A stretch of 31,286 nt of DNA from the NCBI GenBank assembly GCA_016748015.1, contig JAAOMT010000036.1, positions 31,547 through 62,832 of the forward strand, read 5' to 3'. Positions 1-31,286 of this stretch are shown piece by piece. The notes below the pieces were generated by a model. The model did no database searches. It worked only from the letters and a program-made list of their open reading frames with translations, and was not told where the DNA came from. Position 1 is the stretch's first letter. Every line of letters begins with the position of its first letter. The translations under genes were made by a program, and so were the position numbers. This DNA is from Geosiphon pyriformis (lineage: Eukaryota; Glomeromycota; Glomeromycetes; Archaeosporales; Geosiphonaceae).

Positions 1-2377
1 TAATTATGCAAAGTCTTTACAGCTAAAAAAAGCCAAATTATTTAAATGTTAAAATTGCAACAAAAAGTAACAGCTCTATAAATTCATTGGGAAAATATTT
101 AATTATCAATAAAAACATGAAGCTCAATTAGATAAACCTGTCAAATAAATTTGTAAAAAAAAAATTTGTACATAATTGAGATACACTGTATTCAATTTTG
201 TAGTATAATATAAATAATCAATAAATATTTGTTCTTTAAATACTTATTCAAATTAATTTTTTTTTAAGCAAAGGTTGTTCTAAATTAATTTACAAAAGTC
301 AATAGTTGGTAAAATTTAAAACTGAGCATAATAATAATTAAAAAATTGCATATTTTAAATAATAAAATTTTTGGAATCACTATATTAAACAAATCAAAAA
401 CTAAACATCTGAAATTTAACATTTACAATTATTTTCCAAATAGAAAAACCATTTTGTTTATAACACATTGTAAAAATTTTAAATTCTGTTTGTTAATCTG
501 TTTTAAAGAACTTAATATTGTATTATGCAACTATTGCAATTTTACTTAATGATAAGCATTGATAATTTAAAAAATAAAAGATTAATTAACAAATTTTTGG
601 TTGAATGAATTTTTTTTACTTTGTTTCTTACTATTTTTATTAATATATATTAATTACTGTATTATATAATTAATCTTTATTTTTTAGATAATTAACTTAA
701 TTGTTAACTTGATTATTAATCTAATTATTAATTAAATTGTTGATCTAATTACTAGTCTGATTGTTAATTTTTTTTGTAACTATATAAATAATAAATCTCT
801 TAATATAAAAGGCATTTAGCAATTAAAGTTTAATATTCCAATTTTTTTTATTTTTCTATTTTAAGTTTTTCAAAAAAAATCTTTTTTTTTGCTTTTACAA
901 AGTGTGGTTCTACTGTTATTTACATGCATAAACTAAAACATTTATAATAGATGTGATTCATGTTTTGTCTGTATGTAACCAGTCACCTGAACCAGTTAAG
1001 ACAACACCATATATTATTTAACACATTTTCAACTAAATTTTCAAACATCTAATCAATAAGTAAACTTGAAAAAATTTTCGAATTACTACTTAAATTATGA
1101 TAACTTATATAAACTAATTTTTCCAAGTAAAAATTTGCTTGCTCACAATATAATCTTCATTGATTAAATCAATGAATTATAATTTTGCATTGTATTTAAA
1201 CAAAACGCCTTTACGTTTTGGATGTTGGTAAATTCAAGCAATTAATAATGACCACAATAAAAAAATAGGGTGCAACTCACTGTATAGATATGTATTGCGG
1301 GCATTAGAAGAATGTTAGAGGGAAAATCCAGTAACTCAACTACCCTCTCAAACTGTTTTTTAATAAAGGGGAATTCTGCAATTCGGAATGTTATTGGATG
1401 ACGTAATTAATATGATTTCTAAAAAGTTAGTTTTTAGTTCTTTTAGAGTTGTAATCTACTCAAGGTCATTTTAATACCATATCAAATTTTTGTGAATTGA
1501 TTTGATTATTTAAAACTTTCAAACTAAGAATTTTGGATCGATAATTGGTCAGAGAGGTCTTTTATGATATTAGGTAGGTCTCAAAAGTGAATAATTGTGT
1601 TTTTGACAATATTTGCAAAAACTTTTTGAAAAAAGGTTTTCATAAAATTAACTATAATATCAAATAAAGAATCTGAATTAAATTTTAAGTTTTAAGCAAG
1701 ATTTACCCCACTCCAAATATTTATAAACCAATAATTTTTATTATAAAATAAGATAAATTATTTTCTAAACTAAATTATTCAATTTAATTAAAACCATTTT
1801 TATATAGATATATTTTTATTTTTATTAAACCCTAGAATTTTTAGAAGCATATTCAATATTGTGAATTTCAAATTATATTTTTTTAGAAAGAAATTTAAAT
1901 AATCATATACTTGAAATACCATTAAAGTTTCATTTCTTGGGAAAATGTTTAAATTAAACAAAATAATTTTAATTTGATTACTTGAAACTTTAGAAACTTA
2001 ATGAGTAGTAAAATTATTTACTATTAAAAATAAATTCAAGAAATCAACGAGATAATAATATATTGATACTTGGAAAATTTGTTTTTATACTTTTTTGAAA
2101 TGTATTTTTGACAATTTTTAAAAAATAAATTCATGCAAGGGAAAAATTTTTTGAATTACCGCTTAAAAGAAATATTAGCCTTGGAAAAGAAAAGAAAAAA
2201 TCATGATAACTTTTCAATTGCCTAAAGATGGGGGTATGACAATGCTTAAACTATGATGAATTACATAATTGATGATTTAAAAGGGCTTGGCATTTTTATA
2301 ATTATTATAAAAATTGCCATGAAATTTTTGTGTTGTCCATAGGTTTAGATTCTAAAAATTTTTAATCCCTCAACAAA
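1..2377. other. AT-rich intergenic DNA
   Basis: This stretch is dominated by A and T homopolymers and stop codons in all frames. I see no convincing gene. The only recognisable structure is a probable LINE 3' remnant near 881-1015, listed separately. From about 650 to 770 there is a loose AT-rich quasi-repeat built on attaatt/gttaat words, too degenerate to call a defined repeat. Confidence 0.6.
881..1015 (-). mobile_element. Decayed 5'-truncated LINE 3' end (probable)
   Basis: Read on the plus strand, a short T-run at 882-890 is followed by sequence that resembles the 3' untranslated end of the LINE at 14,568-14,720. The clearest part is 953-1004, which parallels 14,657-14,714: both have a tgtga-tcatg word, then tct--atg, then accag-cac, then acaacacca or ataacacta. 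The differences are mostly c/t and a/g. Insertion with poly-T on the left gives the same orientation as the young LINE. I infer a 5'-truncated dead copy. Upstream similarity fades quickly, so the inner boundary is uncertain. Confidence 0.5.
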
Positions 2378-2980
2378 ATGAACTCTCGAGGCTTCAATTC
2401 TCTTTTGATTCTTCTCTTTGTACTTTTCTCGATTTTTACAAAATCTTGTTCAACCTCTCCAATTCCCACAAGTCATCGTGAGGAGGATTTTTACAATCCT
2501 CGTGAATCAGTAACAGATACAAATAGTGATACAAAAAATAATTCAAACATTGATGCTGACCTTGTGTCAGAATCTGGTGATAAATTCATGACGTCAAATC
2601 TGGCATCCCTCAATCCAGCACTTTTCTTCCCACCCTCCGCCCAACTTCAAGATTCATCATCATCATCAGATCTCTCGAGTACTGATACAATCCCTTCATC
2701 ACCAATGATCTCTGATAAATTTCATCTTTTACATAAAAGAATGTGGCCAATGATGCTGAACAATCTTGGAATTTCAAAGAAAAAATTAGAAGAAATGCCT
2801 GAAGGAACAACAAATTATCACCAAGGAGCAGTTTATAACGGGGATGATAGTAATACAAATAATGTAACAATCGATGATGAGAAAAACGTTTCCGAAAGTG
2901 AACATACCAAAGGGCCGTTTATCCCTTTAGGACTCAAGAAGTATAAGGTTGTTAATCCCGAAGGTAGCAAAGTGAATTGA
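2378..2980 (+). CDS. Predicted secreted protein of unknown function
   Basis: This 200-residue single-exon frame begins with a classic secretion signal: a short polar start (MNSRGFN), then a hydrophobic core of Leu, Ile, Phe and Val from about residue 9 to 21, then TKSCSTS, where cleavage would be expected. The rest is rich in Ser, Asn, Asp and Thr and has no recognisable domain or membrane segment, so secretion to the wall or host interface is likely. At residues 120-121 a Lys-Arg pair after LLH is a possible Kex2-type cleavage site, preceding MWPMMLNNLG. A KKK follows at 134-136. The base composition is less AT-rich than its surroundings, which supports a real gene. A TATA-like tataattattataaa lies roughly 65-80 bases before the ATG. 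I do not recognise the family. A candidate effector or a processed peptide precursor are possibilities only. Confidence 0.7.
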   Translation: MNSRGFNSLLILLFVLFSIFTKSCSTSPIPTSHREEDFYNPRESVTDTNSDTKNNSNIDADLVSESGDKFMTSNLASLNPALFFPPSAQLQDSSSSSDLSSTDTIPSSPMISDKFHLLHKRMWPMMLNNLGISKKKLEEMPEGTTNYHQGAVYNGDDSNTNNVTIDDEKNVSESEHTKGPFIPLGLKKYKVVNPEGSKVN

Positions 2981-3487
2981 ACAGGTTCATCTTTTAAATT
3001 ATTTGAATATTTTTTTCTATTAGTATCATTTGAATTATTTTTTTGGTGCAATTAAAAATAAGAGCAGAAAGATGTAGTTGATTTGCAAAAGCTTGATATT
3101 TAAGCAAGGAAAGTTTTCTTATATGTAAAAAAGACTCCGCTTTATTTTATTTGTGGATGGTTGCCCTATTTATGAGACTTGCAATGCGGGATATCTCACG
3201 ATCACGCGGAAATAATATACAACAAATTTACATGCAAGAAAATTATAGATATTTAACAAAAAGTTCCGTGGTTGAAATTCAAAAAAGGCAATTTAAAAAT
3301 GCGTCTTCTTAATCAAGAAGATATAATTCTTCACAATCTCAAAAAAAAACAACCATTTGATCTCTACAGAGTTTCTTTTAATTATAATTTCGAAAATAAA
3401 TTAAATATTATGCTTTAAAGAATGAACAATTTGTTTGTAAATTATAAATGTAAATTTTCAAAATTTTGTCACCCTGCAAAACTTAAA
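2981..3487. other. Intergenic region between convergent genes
   Basis: This region lies between the stop codons of the secreted-protein gene (+) and the Smr gene (-), so it should hold two 3' ends. It is AT-rich. A less AT-rich patch at about 3,125-3,230 contains no usable frame. I see no further feature. Confidence 0.5.
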
Positions 3488-4225
3488 TCAGCAAATAACG
3501 CACCCATTGTCACCAAATAATTTATCGAACCACGAAAGATCGCCCTTCCCATGGTTAAACTCTACGTATAAGCATCCAGAGTTCGGTTTATTGGGTGTGC
3601 ACCGGAATTGATATTTTTGAACCAGTTCACCAATAGCAGGTTTCAATTTTGGTATACCGTTTAAGGAATGGTTTCCTTTGCCCACAATTATCATTAGGGT
3701 ATCGATTCGATTTGCTTTACATAATTTGATTCGTTCTTCTGTGTATTCAAGTGCTTCTTTTACAAAGAGACCATGTAAATCGATTTCATCTTTATTTCGG
3801 TGTCTATTATTTTCTGTATTTTAAGGGAAGAAAAAGGATAAGAATAATATTTGAAATAGTTTCTCAATTAATTATTTCATGGCATTAAATTAGAGAACAA
3901 CCAAGTTTTTTCAGATTACGTATGCCTACTTAAATTGCGAAATTCAGCTCATCTTTTTTTTTTAAAAAAAAATTCAATAAACCCATCTCCATTGCATACC
4001 AGAAAAAATAATTTCAGCCGCTTTTTTATTATAAAGTTCCATGAGTCGATAATGCTCTTTGCTCTTATTAGATAAATCTTTGGCCTTTCTCTTGTTTCCA
4101 CTTTTATATGCTTTTTGTGCCTGTTCCGAAATATCTTTTCGTATTTTTGCTTGTTCATCGGCATTATGACGATATTTGGCAGCTTCTGTTCCAGATGATT
4201 GTGGGATTGATCCACTTTGACCCAT
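3488..4225 (-). CDS. DUF1771-Smr domain protein with possible N-myristoyl and CaaX signals
   Basis: Two exons, 4225-4000 and 3813-3488, join to a 183-residue protein. The 186-base intron (3999-3814) starts GTATGC and ends ATACAG, and it splits codon 76. Residues 17-75 are a charged helical DUF1771 region (YRHNADEQAKIRKDISEQAQ, then AYKSGN). Residues 86-160 are a small MutS-related (Smr) domain with DLHG at 87-90 and GKGNHS at 120-125, the two hallmark motifs. Smr domains bind or cut nucleic acid, and DUF1771-Smr proteins are a widespread eukaryotic pairing. The length suits a minimal member. Unusually, the protein starts MGQSGS, a myristoylation-like context, and ends CVIC, a CaaX-like box, so membrane anchoring is plausible. 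The start is the only Met upstream of DUF1771, and a TATA-like run lies about 100 bases before it. The substrate is unknown. Confidence 0.88.
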
Positions 4226-4319
4226 GACGACTACCGAATTTTCAGTTTATTTTGAAATTCCGAGTAAAGAGCTTCGAGATATTTTAGTATTTTTACAATT
4301 ATGAAAATCGCTTTGGAGG

Positions 4320-8045: not shown

Positions 8046-9591
8046 ATGGAAAACAAAGAAATTAAAAGAATAACTCGTCTAGAATCTCATGATTGCAATG
8101 AGTGTGAAAAATGTCAAGAGAGCATTAAAAATTATAGTAATAATTGGTGTAGTGCATGCCATTTCATATTTTTTGAAAAACTTTACCAAGACTTTTCAAG
8201 TAGCAATAAAGTAGTTGATGAAATGATTAAGAATCCAATCTATATTCCACCTAATAAGAATAATCAAAACTGTGATGATGTTCTTTACTATGAATGGATT
8301 CCATGGGAGCGTTTGTCGAATATTAACCAAATTGCTAAAGGAGGGTTGGGTATAATTTATAAAGCAACCCTAATTGATGGAATAATTGCTCCCTGGAGTA
8401 TAAAACATTATGGTTCAATGAAATATAAAAGAAGAGGAACACAGGAAGTAGCAATAAAAATTATTAAAACGAACAGTGAAGAAGTGTTTAAAGAGGTAAA
8501 CAAACTATTATTATTGATATTTATATTTAAATAATTTTTAATTAATTCATATTTACCTATTATTTATTTACTGTATATTATCATTTATTTACTATTTTAC
8601 ACTGTGTCGTTGATAGTTAAATATTCGAAGAGCTATATCTATTAGCGATGATTATAAATACGAAAATAACATCTCTTATATATATGGGATTACGCAAAAC
8701 GCTGAAACACACGAGTATGGAATTGTGATGCCCTTTGCTAAACTTGGAGATATGCGAAAATATTTATCAACAAATTTCCATTCTACAAGTTGGATTGATA
8801 AAATATGGATCGCAGGTAATATAGCTGAAGGACTTAAACAAATTCATACTTGTGGTATGGTTCATCGTGACCTACACTCGGGCAACATCCTACAATTCAA
8901 TGAAGATGAAGTGAAAATTGGAGACCTCGGATTATGTCAACCAGTAAAAAATGAAGCAACAACAACAACAGAGGAAAAAAAGATATATGGAGTGATTCCA
9001 TACATTCCACCAGAAGTTTTAAGAGGAGAAAATTTTACAACAGCTGGTGATATTTATAGTTATGGAATGTTATTATGGGAATTATCAACAGGAAAGCCTC
9101 CCTTTTATGAATATAAACATGATCATATTCTTATAATGGCTATTTTAAATGGTCAAAGACCTAAGATTACCTCCCCACTTATTCCACCTTGTATTGTCGA
9201 AATAATTGTAAAGTGTTGGGATCCTAATCCTAAGAATCGTCCTACTGTCGAAGAAGTTAGGTATAAGATATGGGAACTTAAAAGCAAGTATAGTAGGATG
9301 AAAACTGATGTTTATAAAGATGAGGAGCTTATAGCTGGTGGGTTTGTATATCAAGAGTCTGCAGATGAGGAGTCTGGAGTATGGAAGTTTTCATATGTAG
9401 AGTCTAAAACTGTAGGTCTTCTGTTTAGAGAATCAGATAAATACGTAAAAGAAATGGCAGAAAGTGACGACTCAACGACAACAAATCAATCAACTACGAC
9501 AATGACAACGACAACAACTCGTATTCATCCAGGAGCAGTTTATACAAGTCGTGTTTTAACTTTGCAAATGTTTCAAGAAACAAAAGGTTAG
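8046..9591 (+). CDS. TKL-like protein kinase, copy A (intact)
   Basis: Exons 8046-8495 and 8617-9591 join in phase 0 across a 121-base intron (gtaaac...gatag), giving 474 residues. The N-terminus has a small Cys cluster (C20-x2-C23, C35-x2-C38), probably a zinc ribbon. A linker with EWIPW at 83-87 leads into the kinase domain: Gly loop IAKGGLGIIYKA (96-107), VAIK with Lys138, HRDLHSGN (233-240), GDLGLC with Asp253 in place of the usual DFG, PPE at 282-284, and a helical C-lobe. The ATP-binding and catalytic residues are all present. The tail is Thr-rich, then IHPGAVYTSR, as in many glomeromycete kinases. This architecture fits the large TKL-like kinase expansion of Rhizophagus; the substrate is unknown. 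After TSRV the frame differs by one T from copy B. A donor at 9587 (gttagt) and an acceptor at 9792 would instead end the protein a few residues later, in DDA. Confidence 0.9.
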
Positions 9592-14709: not shown

Positions 14710-17700
14710 CTATGCAGCTATATGTACCGAAACAGAATTACCAACACCAGAAAAGAAAAAACATTGTTTACAAAAGCCAAAATGAATGTCAAGAGCTTTA
14801 GCCATACCAAGTAGCCTAATGATGCCAGCCAAGAACCTAAAAGCCGAGCCAGGGACCGAGATAGAAACTGAACCATCAAGTGAGATGAGATTATTTTTTT
14901 CCATGAATGCACAATGCTTAACCTAAACCAACCAAATATCATTCCTAAAAGCAAAACTAAGAGAGCACATAAACTCAACAATATTTGAACTAGCAACCTT
15001 GTGAGATTTGAAAACAGAGACAGTTTCATGAAGCCACTCATTAAAAACAAACTCTTTAAAGAGAGCCATAAATACAAAGACATCAGAGGCACAAAAAGAC
15101 AACAATTACAGCATGCAGGAGGAAGAGAAAGACAGGCCAGAAAGCACCCTCCAAGATTTCGAACATGTATCCAGTATCTGAAGATGTGCAGAGTCATCAA
15201 CCTTGTAAGAAAAAGCATGATCTGATGTCTCCACCTCACCACAATATAAGCACAATACGCTGGGGTATCTTCTGTTATATAGGCATTTACGAACAGCAAC
15301 AGGCAGCCAGTGGTGCAATGTCTTTATGAAAAAACTGCACGCATCTGTTATGGGCTTGCTAGTGTGGCCAGCGGCCATGTGTGAATCAGGATGCCATACC
15401 AGTAAGGAGCAGGACCAATCAACGTCTGCAAACAAACTGGCAGGCAGAAATTTAGAACCAGAACCAACCTTCCAGTGTGCACAACTGACGGAACAAAAAA
15501 TATCATGAACAAAATACCTAGAATTACCAGAAACAGCCCCACTGTCTGCCAACAAGAAGTGCGCATGCAATTGAGAAGGAAGAAACCAGCCTGAGTGAGA
15601 AAAAGCCCCAGCTATAGCATCAGCATGTTCATTTCCAATTACACCAGAATGACCTTTTACTTTGTGCCATTCAACCATCAAATTTTTGCCATAAATAACA
15701 TTTACAATATGCTGGCGTTCGACCCAACAACAATTGCAAAAATCCAGATGCACCAGACCCAATTCCGACTTGCAAGCATCCAGAGCAGCTTGACTATCAG
15801 AAAACAGACAAACAAAACTAGAACAGGGAACACACTCCAGTGCCAGTGCAATAGCTTGCATTTCCACCAAAGTAGAAGACAGCAGACCCAAAACTCCAAC
15901 ACTCAAACCCAGATCAATGTTACTGAAAAAAACTCCAGCCCCAGCTGCGCAATTCTTAGTACCAAAATTTGTTAGAGACCCATCCATATAAACAGAAATG
16001 CTACTAGAAAGAACTTGGGAAAGCTGATCACGAACCAACACAAAGCCAAGAGAGGCAAAAATACTCTGAAGACCCACATCAACCAAAGCAGAAGAAGGGG
16101 CACAAGGAGAAAACGTACCAGACAAGAACTCAACAGAAAGCATAAACCACTCAGGAGTCGGGCCACGGGGGTTCAACCTCTTCCACCACTTGAATTTGTA
16201 CCAGTCAAACACAGCACCATAATGATTACAGAGTTGGTCAACAAAGGCAATGCCATATTACTGAAATAAAGGAAGGAACCTGACAAATCTAGACTCACTG
16301 AGAATGGTAGACATGGGTATTCTACCACAAAGCTGAAATGGACTATCAACAAAACCACTCAAAGATAAATTGCAATCGAGGAGAACACAAACAACTCCCA
16401 TTAAAAAGTTATTCAAAGAGCTGACTCGAACATAAACAGGAACACTCAAAAGATGAACAGGGCGCTAGCATGAAACTTGTAAGTCATGAAACCTGTGGAA
16501 GAATAGGCAACCCAGGATTCTCACTGAGTTTGCAAAACAAATAAGGGAAGTGACTTTACTCTCTAATTGAATCTGGGCGAAAGATTTCAACCCATAGAAT
16601 GGATTGTGTCACTAGGAAAATCAAGAGGTAATTCAGACTTAGATTTCAAGCCTCTGCAAATCAAAACATCCTACTTATTACACACATTGACAGGAACAAA
16701 ACTAAACTGAGTCCTATAACCGATGATGGGATGGAGGACAGCTAACACTAAATATAGAAATTGTTTGTGCAATATGGCCTTTCTTAGAACCAAGTTGATA
16801 AAAAAACAAACATCTGAATGTGCCTTTGCCAGGCTGGGCTTTGACAGTCTCTCAGATGACACAAAGATACTCAGATAATAATGTGATTCGCCTGATTTAG
16901 CTATTGAAATAGGGGACCCACTGATGAAAAAAGAAAGTACACTGGCACGGCTATTAATTGGAATGGCCACTGTCTTATCATTATTAATAGAAATATTATT
17001 GATGTGGAAAAATTCACTAGCCATATTAAGAATGTATTGAATGGCAGTCTGACTGCTACCCACCCAGATTGTATCGTCCATAAAAGCACCAGCAGCAAAG
17101 AAAGATGACAAACCAGCCTGAGACTCCACACGGCCTGTTTTAGCAACGAAATGAGAGTTTAACTTGTAACCATATACACTTTCCTGCCTCTTAACTTCGC
17201 ACAAGAAAGGATCATAAAATATACACCAAAGAAGAGATAAAAACACCTCCTCTTGGTCCAAGCCATCGTGTACATGATAACCATTCATCAACCCAAAATC
17301 AGTCATAACTCGGTTGGTACAACCATCATGAATATTCCCAAAAAACCTAATAAACCTGCAGCACATTTTTATTCTAACCAAACTTTTCTTAAGATGATCC
17401 CAACCGACCAAGTCATATGCTTTCCGCATGTCTTGTAAAACCAGCCAGAGCTCCCGGTTTTTTTCAAGAGCATCCTCGATTACCGAACCAATCGCAAAAA
17501 TGGGAGACTGAGTTGTAGTGTCTTTGAGAACTAAAAAATTGTCCTCATGAAGAATGTCAAACTTGCTATATGCCAAAGAGATTCTATCAGAGAGAATCTT
17601 AGAAAAAATTTTTCAAGCCATCTCAATCAGAGCAATAGGACGAGTGTTTGTGAGCATGCCCTTCCATTCATAAGGTTTGGGAATCATTGACATCCAGGCT

Positions 17701-19370
17701 TCCTTCCAAGCACCAGGCACAGACTCACCACAAAGACAAGAATTAATGAGCACCAAGAGCATATCAAGAACAGATTTGTCACAGTGCTTCCAAAGTTCAT
17801 TGAAGATGCCTGAGAGACCAGCAGCCTTTCCGTCAGGTAGGTCAGAGACCATGCCAGACATCTCATCAAAACTAACACAGCTTATCACATCTGAAAAAGC
17901 ACCATCAAACACGTAATCCAATGGCTGATATTGGCGAGACCAATTTTCCGGAATATCAAGAACCACTTCATGTTTACGAGTCCACCCCTTCATAATCTCA
18001 TCCACTTTTTTTTTAACAGGATCAGGTTTCAAATACAGCTCATTACCAACGACCAAATGATCCAAAACCACCTTGTGAAAAGGCCTCTCCAAGACACTTC
18101 TAATAGTATGACTCTTGTTAGATTCAAAGCTCTCCATCCTCTTATCAATAGCAGATCTGATTTGTGAATCTTTAGCACGTTTTGATTCTGACAACTTTGA
18201 GGTACGATAAGACTTCCTGGCTTTGGACAGAGCTGAATGAATGTTGTCAAAAAGAGACCTCACTATAGCAGCACCAGCAGAATCAAGCGATTTCCAAGTA
18301 TCAAGCAGTAATACGAACACATCACAATCAACAGAATGGGAAGCCTTAACCAACTTGGACACCAAAAGTTCTAACTTATGGAACCTGGACGAATGCTTAG
18401 TGAAAACGCTGTCATAATCTTTAAACCATTTTTTCCTGAAAACTTCACTCGCCAAAAAGCTCATTGTTTTCCAAATAGCATCCCACATCGCATCCAAATC
18501 CGACAGTTCTTTGGCGGCCAAGAAATCATCAGAGAACATGGCAGCATTCACTGCCATGGCCTCCCTGAATTTCAACCACAAGGCAACACCAGCATTCTTA
18601 AAATTGTACTTCCAACGATCCCTATTGGCCTGCTTGCGAACAAAACACAAATGTGTATCCAAGAGACCACCTAAACCAATTGACACAGAGACAGCATAAT
18701 GGTCAGTATCAAAGAAATTGGACACATGCAGAACATCACAATCCACAATAGCATTGACCAAATTGGGAGACACAAAAAAATAATCAATTGTTTTCGTCAC
18801 ACCCTGGGAATTACTCCATGTTGGAACTTTCACAAATAGATTACTGACAAAAAAGTTGACCAGACCCAAGCTACCACACTTTCTGAAACTGGCACTTTTA
18901 CGCAAACCATCTTTATTGAAGTTACCACTTAAGACCACAAAGGATGATTTATTCACAGCACTAGTGATCAAAGCATTCATGTCATCAGCCTGAGAAAAGC
19001 GCACCAAAGCTGACATGCCAGCATATAGACCCAAAATAAAAACCGAGAGTTTATTCCTAAAAAGCAACTTGATAGAAATAAGATGACCAGGAACTTCAGA
19101 AATTTTGCACACATGCTTGGCCAGAGAATTGTTTATAATGATTACCACCCCAGAACCAAGATGACCAGAATTCAAACCAGAAATGAAGATCCAAACACCA
19201 TTGAATTTGCTAGCAATCCAAGGCCAAACCTTATCTTTTAACTTCATCTTAGTAACAATTGAAACTAAATTGTTCTTATCTCTGTGCCAACATATAATGT
19301 CCTCTTGCTTTGCTGAATTGTTCATTCCCTTAACATTACACGTGGCTATTTTCCATACTAAATCATTCAT
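14710..19370 (-). pseudogene. LINE ORF2: APE endonuclease, reverse transcriptase, RNase H (broken)
   Basis: ORF2 nicks target DNA, reverse transcribes the element RNA and removes the RNA strand. Reading from ATG 19370: the endonuclease (about 19,370-18,640) starts VWKIATCN, but the usual catalytic Glu of the TETK motif is Lys (VTKMKL) and the Asp of GDFN is Asn (SGNFNKDG); TIDYFFVS and the DTDHYAV motif remain. The RT has LQDMRKAYD and FMDDTIWVG. RNase H (about 16,000-15,550) keeps Asp of YMDGSL, Glu of LVEMQA, Asp of FSDSQAAL and Asp of GNEHADAIAG. A terminal CLYC-x7-H motif ends in Tyr where Cys is expected. Stops lie at 17,613, 16,668, 16,465, 16,258, 15,106 and 14,923. A frameshift near 16,600 moves the reading frame after DFPSDTIH to YGLKSFAQ. 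Most stops are one transition away from Arg, Gln or Trp codons. Confidence 0.92.
19367..19370 (-). promoter_or_regulatory. ATGA stop-start overlap joining LINE ORF1 and ORF2
   Basis: On the minus strand the ORF1 stop (TGA, 19369-19367) overlaps the ORF2 start (ATG, 19370-19368). Such overlaps allow termination-reinitiation in several non-LTR elements. The first ORF2 codons, MNDLVWKIATCN, match the expected start of the endonuclease, which supports this Met over an in-frame Met further upstream. Confidence 0.75.
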
Positions 19371-21208
19371 TGAGATACAAAAAAGACTGCAGAACCTGAG
19401 CCAGCACACATTTGATCTAACTTCCCTAATACCAAACAAACTGAAACTTCGAGAGCCATCAACTTTGACTCCAAACAGCCCACTTTTGAAGTCAGAATTT
19501 TTGAACTACTCGAACCCATACTTGAGGCACCAGAGAAAACCGAAGAAGGAGGAATAACCACAGAATTAGGTTCATCCAAAACCATATCCGAACCAAATTT
19601 CATATCAACCGAACCAGGGGCAATCAAAGGCTGAGAAGAGGAGGCGAAAGCCAAGGGCACCAGGCTTAAACTGTCAAGTTTGTCAATAATACCAGACACC
19701 TTATCCATAAGAAGTTCCAAAGAGTGCTTCAAAGAAACAAGACGAATTTCCAAAATCAAACTAACAGAACCCGTAAGAGACGAGTAACTAACCAAACCTA
19801 AGGTGCTAGAAAAAGAGCCAAAACCAGGACCAGAAACAAAGTGAGGACCATTAGACAAAGATGCTAGAAAGACAACCTGGGCCCATGACTTGCCACCAAA
19901 TGCAGCCAGTTTGGAAATAAACACACTCTTTTTTACATATAGCTTGGCCAACTGGAAGCAGTTCTCATTAGAAACAACCTTTTTAAATAACTTGGAAAGT
20001 TTAGGAGAATGTGAGATCTCAGCATTACACTCCAGAACAGAATAACCAAGTTTCCCATACCGTTCACACTGAATTATGTCCAATCTAGCCCAAGAAAGTT
20101 TCACCCTACCAAAAACAGACTCCGTACGAAATGCAGACTTCAAATTCTCATCATTCTTAAAACAAACCACAGCACAATGAACCCTGTTACCAGTGTCTAA
20201 GAATCAATTTATGACACAAGTTTTTCTACCAGCTCCTGCCAAAAAATTGCCAAGATCATGAGCCATTGTTCCCACCAGCAAAGTAAACAAAAGCACTCTA
20301 TACCGATCTCTAAATGCCCACATCTCACAATCCTTTACAGCTTTGGCCACATGTACAGAATTTTTCCCAATTAAGAATAACCACTTAGCTGCCAACTGAT
20401 CTGTCTGACTTGATTCGGCAAGCTTCACCACAGCCTTTTGCCACAGCCCAATGAGTTGCAATCAGATTGACACCACTTGACCAAATTCGGACACTGCGGC
20501 AATGATCATTTCTTTTGGCATATCTATGGAAATTTTTTTAATGACTACAGCCCAATCTGAACAAACTCCTTGTCTCTTAAGATTGTTGTTTACCATGATG
20601 TCATTTTCCCTGGCCAATGAAGTGGTCTTTTCCATGCTTTCTGATGAAGTAAACGTTGATCTGATGATCTCTTCAAATTTTGAGGGGGTAGTGGCCCTCC
20701 CAAAACCATTGATTCGTGAAAACAATTTCCTTATGACCTGAGTTTTAGTCATCGCCAATTTCCCTTCTACAGCCAAAAGATTAATGTCCAAAGTGAAAGA
20801 TTTCTTCACAGCTATTTCCACCTGGGTTTTAACAATTTTGGGGTCCACCCACACTTTTTCCAAAGAGAAAGACAAATGGGGGGGAAAAGAAACTTCCTCC
20901 TCATCATCCATGTCATAATTAATAGAGCTGAGAAGGGAACTGATAACTGCACCAGTATTGAAACACTTCGCATCGGGCATATTCATTTGGGAGTCAGAAG
21001 TGCTTTTACCATCAGAGGTTTCTCCATTCATATCCATGCTAGCAAAATGTCCATTTGCACAAACAGACCCACCATCCTTGAGATTCATATTTGTGCCAGA
21101 AACTTTAATATTACTGAGAAACTTTCTGACTTTCTGAGTTGAACCTCCACCAACTGAACTAGTGGTTGAAACTCTGGCTGACCTTCTCTTAGCTTCAGGC
21201 TCACTCAT
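19367..21208 (-). pseudogene. LINE ORF1: RRM-like and zinc-knuckle protein (two in-frame TGA)
   Basis: This is one continuous frame of 613 codons plus stop, interrupted by TGA at 20,462-20,464 and 20,204-20,206. I infer that both were CGA (Arg), changed by C-to-T. The N-terminus is basic (EAKRRSAR), then Ser/Asp-rich. An RRM-like segment (DWAVVIKKI ... FGQVVSI, then LQLIGLWQKAVVKLAE) is followed by a region that should hold a CCHC knuckle, but it reads C-ER-Y-GKLG-Y-SVLE-C: the second Cys and the His have both become Tyr by single transitions. The C-terminal half is Ser/Leu-rich with a possible coiled coil (LISKVGCLESKLMALE-like). The protein would bind element RNA. The frame ends TGA, overlapping the ORF2 start. 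Confidence 0.9.
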
Positions 21209-21879: not shown

Positions 21880-24571
21880 AATATTACTGAAGATTCAAAA
21901 TTCAAAATAACAGAATTTGATAATCTAAATAGTCTAAATATTAATATATTTGATAAACATAGTTTTCAGAGCGAATTATAGAACTATTTTGATAAGTTTG
22001 AGTGGATAAAAAAAAACAGCTAAATGTACAGTCTTAAAATATGTGCATAAACTATTTTTTCATAGAATTACGGAAACTACCAAACTCTTATGGTGCTATT
22101 TAGAGGCTTTTTACTAGACAGTATATATTACAACAGAAAAATATCATAAGAAAAACAAAATGTTCAAAAAAATTGTGAGTTAATTGAAAAAATGTTTTGA
22201 TAAGTAAAATTACTATTTTTTTTTATAATTTTTGACCAATCTAACTAAAAAACTGCTTTAGCTTTCTGTAGTAACTGCTATTAATATTGATAATAAAAAA
22301 CTTTGTAACATGATTACTATTTGGCTTATCAACTGCCAGTGATTACTTTTTATAATAGAAGATCTTGAATTAATTAAAATATTCTAATATTTGAACCACA
22401 TTTCTCAAACTGCTTGTGTTAATATAATTAAGAATAGAATTATAGAACTTTATGTCTTAAGTAAACAAAAATTAAGAGTAAGCACTACTTTATTATAAAA
22501 TGTCTCTTTTTTTTACCCATATTTATAATGTAATAAACATACTTAGATATTATCAAATTTAAAATTTTCTTTTCATTAGATCTCTGGACATTTTTTAATA
22601 ACAAAGTCTTTGTCTTTGTTATTGCTAATTATATATATAACAATTGGGATCTTCAATAAACAATAATAAATTTTGGATTAATAAGTAGATAACATAATAA
22701 AATAAATATTGTAAACAGATTTTTTAAAGTATTAAAAGATTATAGAATTACATCAAAGGTACAAATATATATTTTTGCATAAATTTAAATTAATTAATAG
22801 CCAATGATGAGATTAGCATATCATGTAGCATATTAATATTATCTGAAACTCAAAGTTACTATAGTGCTCATATTATTAAAAATTGTATTTTCTTATTGTT
22901 AGTTTAAATTGATTTTTATCATTGCTTCAAAGCTAAATTTTTGGCATTAGTATTATTTAAGACTCAGAGTTATTACAGTGCTTATATTATAGAAAACTGT
23001 ATTTTCTTAATGTTAGTTTAAGTGGTTTTTATCATTGCCTTAAGCTGAATTTTTGACCAAAAAAATTAAGAAAAAAGTTTAAAAAAGAGTTATACTTACT
23101 TTTTTTTTATATAAGTTTACTATTAATTTTTTTTTAATAGTTTCTTGCTATTATTCTCAATAATGCTGCAAATAATGATACTTTTATAAAAGAGTTAGTA
23201 AGAAAATTAGAAGAAAAAACATTTAATAGAATTCAGAGGATCTTTGATTTTAATGTTTTAATCATATTCTAAACTTGGCAATACAGATAGTTTTAAATAA
23301 AATAAAAGATAATGTTTCTAATATATTTGTTAAAAACCCAAACCAAATATATTTATTTGAAATTTTTTTAATGTAAACTTTATATAAATTAAAGATTAAA
23401 GAACTTAACTTTGCAATCCATACTTTGCCTTAATGTTTTGAGCTTCTTAAATGTGTTTGTAATGTATGTCAAATTAAATACTGTAAACTTATTCTGAATT
23501 GTTTTACTTGGTAGAATTCTATTTATGATATGGTCAAGAATAAATTATCTTTTAAATCAGAAGCTATTTATTTCTAATTTTATATATTTTAAATACAAAA
23601 TTTTAACTGTAAATTTATAGACATTAAACACCATTACTAACACTAATATTGATCTTTATCAATATGCTATTTCACATAATCAGTGGACTGTTTTTAATAA
23701 AATTGCTAAATTCCTTGAATAATTTAAGAATATTATGATTAAAATGTTAGCCAGTTCAAATAATACTGCCTCTTTTATTATTCTTCTTTTTAATATCATT
23801 TTTAATCATGTCGAAAATATGATTAATGATAATAAATTTGGTAAAGCATTATAATCTTGATTGTATTTATTTAGTTATTTATTTAACACATTTAATATTA
23901 GATTTATTACTTGTTATAACAGCTAGGGCAACAAGAAAAAAGGTGGCTGAATATTACTCTAAAACAAATACAACTATAATGTTCTGTTTGTATTAAATCC
24001 AAGAAAAAAATTCTATTATTTCATAAAGAAGAAATTTTCAAATAATAATATTAATAAAATAAAAGAATTGTAAATTAATAATTTATTTAAACAATTTTAT
24101 ATTCCAACTCTTACATAATAAATAAATCGTTAGAATGTGTATTTTTTTTGAAATGAAGTATACATTGGACATTATACAAACATTAAATAACAGTTTTTTA
24201 TTGAATAACAATTTTAATGATATTATAGCATTAGTTACTAATCCATATTAGAAACAGACTTTGATAATAATGATGAAAAAAAACTTAACAAAATTAATTA
24301 TTATATCTCTGAAAAAGTGACCAATAGGAAAATAAATATAATGACATAATGGAAGATATATTATAAAAAATATTTATCTAAATTAATATTTTATTAATAA
24401 TTTGATATTTAGATATATTAAACACAATTTTCTTATTTTACATATATGGCTCATAATTATTTGGCAATTCAAAAATTATTTGTTGTTTTTGAATACATTT
24501 TTTTTGCAGATGAGAATATAATTATAAATATGAAGTCTTGCTTAGTGCCTAAAACTATAAGAACAGCATAG
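21880..24571 (+). pseudogene. hAT transposase relic
   Basis: Fragments in several frames appear in family order. A BED-finger-like piece (YFDKFEWIKKN, then AKCTV after a frame change) is near 21,985-22,060. IIEDLELIKI is near 22,357. NNAANNDTFIKELVRKLEEK is near 23,160, matching the DNASNND region of hAT transposases and followed by a weak cfaHvlNL-like stretch. WNSIYDM-like is near 23,515, then AISHNQWTVFNKIAKFLE near 23,665 and ASFIILLFNIIFNHVENMI near 23,768. The dimerisation (hATC) domain, MAHNYLAIQ ... NMKSCLVPKTIRTA, runs from 24,446 to the stop at 24,569-24,571. Stops and shifts occur throughout, so no product is expected. It would have cut and pasted the element. Confidence 0.82.
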
Positions 24572-28463: not shown

Positions 28464-29929
28464 TCAATCATTTGCAAAGTTAAAAACACGACTTGTATAA
28501 ACTGCTCCTGGATGAATGCGAGTTGTTGTTGATTGAATTGTTGTCGTTGAGTCATCACTTTCTGCCATTTCTTTTAAGTATTTCTCTGATTCTCTAAACT
28601 GGAAATCCACAGTTTTAAACTCTTCTATGATTGAAACTTCATCTGTATCTTTTACAACCCACTTATATATGTCCAACAACTTATGCCATACTTCTTCAGC
28701 AGTAGGACGATTCTTAGGATTAGGATCCCAACACTTTACAATTATTTCAGCGATACAAAGTGGAATAAGGGGGAGGTAATCTTAGGTCTTTGACCATTTA
28801 AAATAGCCATTATAAGAATTTGATCATGATCACGATCATAAAAGGGAGCCTTTCCTGTTGCTAATTCCCATAATAACATGGAGAAACTATAAATATCACC
28901 AGCTGTTGTAAATTTTTCTCCTCTTAAAACTTCTGGTGGAATGCATAGAATCACTCCATATATCTTTTTTTATTTCATGTCTTTTCCTGTTGTTGGGTCT
29001 GTTTTTGTTGTTGCTTCATGGTTTACTGGTTGACATAATCCGAGGTCTCCAATATTCACTTCATATTCATATAATTGTAGGATGTTGCCTGAGTGTAGGT
29101 CACGATGAACCATACCAGAAGAATGAATTTGTGAAAGTCCTTCAGCTATTTTACACGCGATCACTAATTTATTAAACCAACTTTTGGAATGAAAATTTGT
29201 TGATAAATATTTTCGCATGTCTCCACGTTTAGCAAAGTCCATAAAAATTCCATATTCGAGTGTTTCAGCGTTTTGCGTAATTCCAATTATTTCAGAGATG
29301 CAAAAATAGTCTTTATCATCAGTGTTAATAAAAATAGCTCTTCCAATGTTTAACTATCAACGACACAGTGTAAAATAGTAAATAAACGATAATATACAGT
29401 AAATAAATAATAGGTAAATATGAATTAATTAAAAATGAATTTTAGATAAATATAAATAATAATAATAATAATAGTTTGTTTACCTCTTTAAACACTTCTA
29501 AACTGTTCGTTTTTATAATTTTTATAGCCACTTCCACTGTTCCTTCTCTTTTATATTTCATTTCATCATTACATCTTATACTCCACGTATCAATCCGTCC
29601 ATCAACCCATGTTGCTTTATAAATTATACCGAACCCTCCTCTAGCAATTTCGTTGATATTCGACAAACGCGCCCATGGAATCCATTCATAATAATTCAAA
29701 CAATTATATGTATCTTCATTATTAGGTAAAATATAGATTGTATTCCTAATTATTTTATCAACTCTTTATTCCCGCTTGAAAAGTTCCTGTAAAGTTTTTG
29801 AAAAAATATGAACCAGCATGCAGCGCACCGATTCTCTTGATTATTTTTAATACTGTCTTAACATTTCTCACAGTCATTGAAATCATGAGATTCTGGACGA
29901 GTTGTTCTTTTAATTTCTTTGTTTTCCAT
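28464..29929 (-). pseudogene. TKL-like protein kinase, copy B (inactivated)
   Basis: A paralogue of copy A in inverted orientation with the same gene structure: ATG at 29,929, a donor after Glu at 29,484, a 130-base intron (29,483-29,354), and exon 2 from 29,353 (LNIGRAIFI). Four lesions break it. Codon 24, Gln in copy A, is TAA (29,858-29,860). One base is lost near 29,762, between AATAAAG and GTTGAT. A TAA at 28,970-28,972 precedes KKIYGVILCIPPEVL. One base is lost in the G-tract at 28,769-28,773, after ITSP. Readable motifs remain: EWIPW, IARGGFGIIYKA, VAIKIIK, HRDLHSGN, GDLGLCQP, PPE. The tail keeps IHPGAVYTSRVFNF, nearer the usual family ending than copy A. It is probably a dead duplicate; partial products are possible. 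Confidence 0.88.
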
Positions 29930-30160
29930 GGTATGAATAAAAACGGATAAAATGTAAATAGATTATTATTCGAAGAAGGTTTTTTTGAAAATGTTTATTT
30001 GATAGTACGTTTAAAAAGTAATTTATCTAAATGCGGAGTTCTTATTTATATTGTTTCTGTGTTCACATAGTTAAAAATTCTTTTTATTTAATCTTAAAAA
30101 GTGGTTTTTATCAAACTATGATTCGCTATAAATTATACTAAATAGGTTTAAGTGGTTACG
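29930..30160 (-). promoter_or_regulatory. Leader and promoter region of kinase B
   Basis: The first 120 bases upstream of the ATG closely match those of copy A: tttacattttatccgtt, tactttttaaacgtactatc -like words, and caatataaataagaactc, the TATA-like site. Copy B has about 50 extra bases further out. That regulatory sequence survives beside a broken frame suggests fairly recent inactivation. Confidence 0.55.
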
Positions 30161-30230
30161 GTACACAAAGAAATACGCCAAACAAGTTTCCCATTATCTC
30201 ATTGTCTTCTTACCCAAATGAGTTGTATGA
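30161..30230 (-). promoter_or_regulatory. Conserved 70-bp block, copy 3 (kinase B)
   Basis: On the minus strand this repeats the block at 7361-7430 and 7795-7864, ending ggcgtatttctttgtgtac. Only one copy is found upstream of copy B, so the tandem doubling at copy A happened in that lineage or was lost here. Confidence 0.5.
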
Positions 30231-30621
30231 TTTAATGACAAAACTTTTGTTGCTTGCATAACTTTTATTAATAGAGAATAACGAATAAGGGTGATTTGAA
30301 TTTCAAGTTAAACTCCCATAATTAATAAGTTAGTCACTAATTTTTCATTCTAATATATTAAATTCAAATTTATTTTCTGTTATAATTTTGCTGTATATCA
30401 TATTTTGAACTTAATCATTAATAATGAAATTAAAAGTTAATAAATCTTAAATATTATACTACCATTTGATAAAACAATATTTAATTTTTTAGTTCAAACT
30501 TTTACTTTAAAATTCATAAAAATAATATATTATACATGTATTTAATTAATTAACTAATTAATTTAATTTAATTATAATATTTTCTAATTGTCTTTAAACT
30601 TTTTTTTTAACATTGTAATTT
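30231..30621. other. AT-rich DNA up to the suspected junction
   Basis: After about 30,275 there is no further similarity to the region upstream of kinase A. The stretch is plain AT-rich DNA with attaatt runs around 30,540-30,575. I see no gene. Confidence 0.5.
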
Positions 30622-30640
30622 CTGTCTCTTATACACATCT
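30622..30640. other. Tn5 mosaic-end sequence (probable library artefact)
   Basis: The 19 bases CTGTCTCTTATACACATCT are identical to the hyperactive Tn5 mosaic end used in transposase-based sequencing libraries. It is an engineered sequence, not a natural genomic one, and a 19-base chance match in 31 kb is negligible. Composition changes abruptly on its right side. Most likely two unrelated pieces were joined here in library preparation or assembly. Confidence 0.88.
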
Positions 30641-30659
30641 CTCTTGCCTTTTGCTTATG

Positions 30660-31160
30660 TAGGGCGAACCCACTATCGGCTACCAATGACAAATTACCGG
30701 CGTCCACCAACCCACGAACATAAACAGGGCGAAATTACCGGCGTCCACCAACTCATGAACATAAACACCTATAACCAGGATGAAATTACCGGCGCTCACC
30801 AACTCACGAACATAAACATCTATAAACAGGACGAAATTACCGGCGTCCACCAAATCACGAACATAAACACAATAACCAGTATGAAAATAATGGTGTCCAC
30901 CAACTCACGAACATAAACACCTATAACTAGGACGAAATTACTGACGTCCACCAACTCACCGGCGTTCACCAACTCATAAACATAAACACCTATAAACAGG
31001 ACGAAATTACCGGCGTCCACCAACTCACCGGCGTTCACCAACTCATAAACATAAACACCTATAAACAGGACGAAATTACCGGCATCCACCAACTCACCGG
31101 CGTTCACCAACTCACGAACATAAACACCTATAACCAGTACAAAGGAACACCAACAACTCA
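30660..31160. repeat. Minisatellite with 51-bp and 69-bp units
   Basis: The repeat word gaaattaccggcgtccacc starts at 30,731, 30,782, 30,833, about 30,883, 30,934, 31,003 and 31,072. Spacings are 51, 51, 50, 51, 69 and 69. The 69-bp units are the 51-bp unit plus 18 bases (actcaccggcgttcacca). Each unit also carries gaacataaacacctataa. A partial unit precedes 30,731. The array is far richer in G and C than the rest of the window. Both unit lengths are multiples of three, so frames stay open on both strands. Confidence 0.9.
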
Positions 31161-31286
31161 ACAATATCGAATAAACGAATAAACGAATAACGAATATGGA
31201 ATAAAACATTGATCACCAAATAACTGAAATTAAATTTCAGGGTTAGGTGGTGAGGAATTGATGATTGTTAGTCTGTTATCCATGCC
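31161..31286. other. End of window beyond the minisatellite
   Basis: A short tandem cgaataaa run lies at about 31,168-31,197 (three to four units). The remainder has no recognisable feature. Confidence 0.45.

Follow-up and report, generated by a model that had tools for sequence, protein, structure and literature searches.

The window, by which is meant the whole stretch of DNA analysed (31,286 bp), contains a kinase gene at 8046-9591 on the plus strand, of which the part at 8725-9588 matches the Pfam protein kinase domain. A second, inverted kinase copy is found at 28672-30272 and has 82% identity to 9275-7752. Retroelement remains occupy 14718-21208 on the minus strand; one frame there matches RNase H (E 3.6e-11) and another gives a weak reverse transcriptase match below the Pfam cut-off. 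At 22832-23055 a 114-bp unit occurs twice, head to tail, the copies matching at 83%. The features around the right-hand end of the window, with which this analysis is mainly concerned, are collected in Table 1. The last base of the window is followed by 1400 N in the scaffold, C274, which is 131,163 bp in total. This run is taken as an assembly gap; if it is a withheld stretch instead, the 646-bp piece in front of it is not bounded by a gap.

Table 1. Features at the right-hand end of the window (positions are those of the window unless a scaffold is named)
Feature	Positions	Strand	Remarks
Left flank	30270-30583	+	97% identity to segment A, C274:87354-87045 (minus)
Last 88 bp before the adapter	30534-30621	+	Exact copy of C274:75897-75984 (copy B)
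Nine CAG-side bases, expected Tn5 target position	30613-30621	+	Pooled 9-bp motif, 99 sites
Tn5/Nextera mosaic end (synthetic adapter remnant)	30622-30640	+	Exact match; 99 copies in the assembly, reversed control 0
646-bp repeat piece carrying the minisatellite	30641-31286	+	Between the adapter and 1400 N; probably misplaced filler
Minisatellite arrays, units of about 51, 69 and 101 bp	30720-31137	+	Tandem-repeat periods

The 19-mer CTGTCTCTTATACACATCT at 30622-30640 had been recognised in a first-pass annotation as an exact match to the transposase mosaic end of common library kits, and this is confirmed, with 0 mismatches on the plus strand. It is the sole match in the window at up to three mismatches, and 0 of 100 dinucleotide shuffles of the window contained any match. 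The chance expectation for the whole 124.7-Mb assembly is 0.001 copies under the base composition of the window and 0.0004 under a first-order Markov model. The mosaic end is oriented with the genomic insert on its left and its outer end facing right. The surroundings are also as that annotation had described them, AT-rich on the left and a GC-richer minisatellite on the right: the right-hand 646 bp, where the tandem array is located, have 42.3% GC, against 19.6% in the 500 bp on the left.

The whole assembly (124,688,122 bases in 406 pieces) was scanned for the 19-mer, with the same letters read backwards as control. Exact copies number 99, 51 forward and 48 reverse, against none for the reversed control, and allowing one mismatch added just three further copies. 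Many exact copies within one genome might suggest a natural repeat or a real insertion of Tn5/IS50. The ratio of 99 exact to three one-mismatch copies is unlike a natural repeat, and the mosaic end is a laboratory hybrid sequence. Nor was a 9-bp duplication with contiguous flanks, as a natural Tn5 or IS50 insertion would leave, found at the tested sites, which lack hundreds of bases or overlap. A natural origin can thus be set aside with near certainty. The element at 30622-30640 is not a real feature of the genome but a library-preparation scar, one of 99, without biological function.

Tn5 makes a 9-bp staggered cut with a published target consensus. When the 99 sites were pooled, the genomic bases that adjoin the 19-mer at its CAG end gave the motif G-Y-N-Y-W-R-N-R-C at -9 to -1, symmetric about -5. 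The enriched bases are G at -9, T or C at -8 and -6, A or T at -5, A or G at -4 and -2, and C at -1, where A is scarce, with uncorrected p values of 1.3e-10 at -1, 2e-7 at -4, 2e-5 at -6 and 1e-5 at -8; at -3 and -7 there is no significant departure from background over the 99 sites. Position -11 also departs from background (C, p 0.00025). This symmetric 9-bp pattern is as expected for Tn5 cuts. Beyond the outer end of the 19-mer, p falls below 0.05 at just two of the first 14 positions, +6 (0.0085) and +14 (0.024). The transposase attached the adapter on one side only. In the window, as a single site, 30613-30621 matches the pooled motif weakly, which was counted against the adapter reading. 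Over the 99 sites the 200-bp flanks have a GC content of 31.3% on the left and 28.4% on the right (p 0.003), and the site in the window is opposite in this respect.

The same 19-mer is found in public contigs. The sample comprised 260 copies among the matches listed, taken from 119 genome-contig stretches and 120 viral-contig stretches; stretch ends were counted as contig ends, which is true for whole contigs and presumed for the remainder. Among these listed matches, 246 of 260 copies are found no more than 100 bp from a stretch end, facing outward, and none faces inward; 25 stop exactly at base 19, and in 193 the next 8 bases are those of either of the two Nextera adapters. The copies studied here resemble this adapter read-through at contig ends in the exact mosaic end, in the insert on the CAG side and in the outward orientation, and they differ from it in that all 99 are internal and are followed by genomic sequence. 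Of the 14 internal public copies listed, 13 run into N or adapter; the exception, L187, passes straight into other sequence, like the copies in this assembly. Four actinomycete scaffolds (Doro1; L125, L157, L178 and L194) carry the 19-mer, then 3-4 bases, then N. These gap-edge remnants are similar to the present sites in that the 19-mer stands at a contig edge within a scaffold, whereas here it is followed by genomic sequence without N: in none of the 99 copies is there an N within 20 bases after the 19-mer. Likewise, CCGA or GACG, the next bases of the adapters, directly follow the 19-mer in none of the 99. Both of these null results were counted against reading the 19-mer as an adapter remnant.

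Whether the two flanks of an adapter belong together can be judged from other copies of the same loci. Whole-assembly searches were made with the flanks of three sites that lie inside multi-copy elements, 40 of 2251-4291 candidates being scored for each. For L069 both flanks are collinear, about 260-310 bp apart, in 35 of the 39 other listed copies; for L079 this holds in 37 of 39, where the spacing is mostly about 830 bp; and for L064 the pairs resolved among the 40 scored (e.g., C338, C320 and C256) are separated by about 610 bp. At the adapter, the stretch which lies between the flanks in the other copies is missing at all three sites. Reference copies on four stretches made 22 of the 99 sites testable for flank order, and a site was counted once any pair of matches met the flank-order rule. 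All 22 have both flanks in the same orientation and none in the opposite one, and at 17 the spacing is between -300 and +2500 bp, that is, close collinear or overlapping; several of the matches behind these counts are only 72-84% identical, and two of the 17 (L009 and L076) allow an alternative distance. In 2000 permutations of the flank pairing under the same rule, the means were 2.7 sites in the same orientation, 2.5 in the opposite one and 1.1 collinear, with a maximum of 5 collinear. The five sites that are not close-collinear are L034 (-5161), L081 (about -4100), L082 (+4205), L083 (-2878 or +4915) and the plus site of L096 (-1551). L096 is an 890-bp piece with an adapter at both ends, inside a collinear interval which by our reckoning lacks about 800 bp. 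Besides L008, in which 20 bp separate the two, it holds the only close pair of inverted mosaic ends among the 99 copies.

A search for suffix/prefix overlaps of up to 450 bp between flanks found that at three of the 99 sites the right flank opens with a repeat of the end of the left flank: 198 bp with 2 mismatches at L006, 266 bp with 2 at L046 and 139 bp with 4 at L059. Mismatched flank pairings yield 0.05 such end repeats per 99. Such repeats mark overlapping contig ends placed end to end, whose merger was blocked by the adapter tail. At most testable sites, then, the adapter stands where an otherwise continuous locus lacks or repeats a stretch.

These results bear on two further explanations that also start from transposase-treated DNA. 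Physical chimeric molecules, in which tagmented ends were ligated to unrelated DNA during library preparation and assembled as real junctions, would agree with right-hand junctions that bear no clear Tn5 signature, with intact copies that, where seen, mostly share nothing with the adapter end just upstream (as under blunt ligation), and with a minisatellite piece that has no counterpart in either of the two paralogous segments described below. Random ligation, however, should give both orientations and remote partners. Since all 22 testable sites keep the same orientation and 17 are close, contig-end or gap-filling artefacts are indicated rather than random chimeric molecules, and the overlapping repeated ends at three sites are a further argument against the latter. 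The flank order thus speaks for artefacts of this kind over chimeras or joins of remote loci, and chimeric molecules are very improbable as the source of these junctions. Mispriming on bases common to the outer end of the adapter and the DNA ahead of the right flank was also considered and rejected, as nothing consistent was seen by eye in the intact copies at hand, with L008 as an exception. At L008 (1501-1558) the two inverted adapter copies enclose a 20-bp stretch that is found again about 150 bp away, where a few bases in common with the adapter come after it (27 of 30 aligned positions).

The second explanation is that of Nextera mate-pair circle junctions, in which both ends of one fragment of several kb are joined through the adapter. 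Such junctions have the 19-mer in common with the sites described here, and at L034 and L081 the two flanks do share one orientation with the right one 4-5 kb upstream of the left. A circle junction, though, should show the 38-bp palindrome in which the reverse complement directly follows the 19-mer, and this double mosaic end occurs at 0 of the 99 sites, the nearest approach being L008. In addition, the right flank has no Tn5 motif, and it lies 0.3-2.4 kb downstream of the left flank, not upstream, at 16 of the 22 testable sites (two of them by the nearer distance), so that the flank order is mostly forward and not circular. Mate-pair circles are accordingly held to be a very unlikely origin, on a par with ligated chimeras.

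In the window, the left flank is itself a mosaic. Positions 30316-30560 are an exact 245-bp match to C274:87308-87064 (copy A, minus strand), and the 27 bp at 30534-30560 are exact to both copy A and copy B. Copy B continues past the point of the adapter into other sequence. The exact match to copy B at 30534-30621 may possibly reflect a copy-B read used as a contig extension, or else gene conversion. Relatives of the left flank are frequent on the same scaffold, which holds 16 of the 59 other matches listed, three before the adapter and 13 behind it.

The DNA beyond the 1400 N aligns with C274:84834-83709 (minus) at 97-98% and C355:1057022-1058258 at 84%, and the left flank matches the same two segments, at C274:87354-87045 and C355:1054005-1054252. 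The paralogous stretches compared, C274:87400-83600 (segment A, 97%) and C355:1053900-1058300 (78-84%), are both free of N. C274:83709-87354 and window 30270-30583 thus mark an inverted duplicated segment with about 97% identity at both anchors and a distant relative in C355. The spacing from the left-flank anchor to the post-N anchor is 2210 bp in segment A, about 2.8 kb in C355 and 2103 bp in the window, the 1400 N included. Because the anchors are neighbours in two N-free paralogous segments, the scaffold link is probably right: to judge from these alignments, the kinase flank and the DNA past the N probably belong together, and the scaffold order around the fault would be correct. The 19-mer and two minisatellite motifs were not found in either segment, the 646-bp piece has no match in segment A or in the C355 segment, and the spacer of segment A has 23% GC. 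Adapter and minisatellite piece are therefore probably a wrong filler, and the interval that they occupy has the right length. The earlier warning that linkage of the minisatellite to the kinase locus is unsafe is borne out, as both paralogous segments hold other sequence there and no minisatellite motif. The chimeric junction proposed in the same annotation stands as far as a false join at a synthetic transposase end is concerned, and is not supported as far as a lasting import of remote DNA is concerned; with the flanking anchors neighbours in both segments, the last 650 bases probably do not represent a lasting scaffold join to another place or molecule, and the doubt about the locus shrinks to about 700 bp.

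A narrower alternative limits the error to the 19-mer and a few bases and takes the minisatellite repeat for a genuine insertion present only in the window's copy of the segment. The repeat family of the 646-bp piece is dispersed, with at least 47 matches listed in the assembly, the paralogous segments do differ in insertions, and a minisatellite-bearing repeat inserted in the window copy alone would look similar. Against this, the interval in the window, its 1400 N included, is nearly as long as that of segment A, which has no such repeat, and the 646-bp piece is cut exactly at the adapter, where it starts in the middle of the repeat. Other copies of the family extend upstream. Six copies of the repeat were compared for this region, five of them informative (L106, L107, L109, L110 and L111) and one (L108) aligned to another repeat unit; the upstream continuation is nearly identical in C45, C374 (twice) and C338, takes a more distant form in C107, and is absent from the window. 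We infer misplacement of the entire 646 bp, and a true insertion is considered unlikely, although less so than either chimeras or mate-pair circles.

The 19-mer is, very probably, a Nextera-type (Tn5) adapter remnant that remained attached to the end of a read or short-read contig and was then placed beside the next piece. Under this mechanism, part of the adapter would have stayed on the end of the contig or read, and merging of such an adapter-tailed end with its true neighbour would have failed during scaffolding or gap filling, the end being set against the next piece without N. In the window, an adapter-bearing tail, the last 61 bp of which perhaps come from a paralogous copy, and a 646-bp piece would have been inserted into an interval (about 2.1-2.2 kb) which in the two paralogous segments holds different sequence with no minisatellite. 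For users of the assembly, 99 places carry adapter scars, and the testable ones are mostly missing, repeated or wrongly filled stretches. Masking is called for wherever gene models, repeat boundaries or insertion calls fall on these sites, and the 19-mer can double as a free tag for contig ends that were not merged.

Three of the 99 adapter sites, L014, L088 and the one followed by window 30641-31286, are flanked by one and the same minisatellite-bearing repeat family, as if this family often breaks the assembly. A second adapter copy (L041) is located on the window's scaffold at C274:19656-19674, 42.5 kb ahead of the copy at 30622-30640, and its right flank has 96.7% identity to window 30-328.
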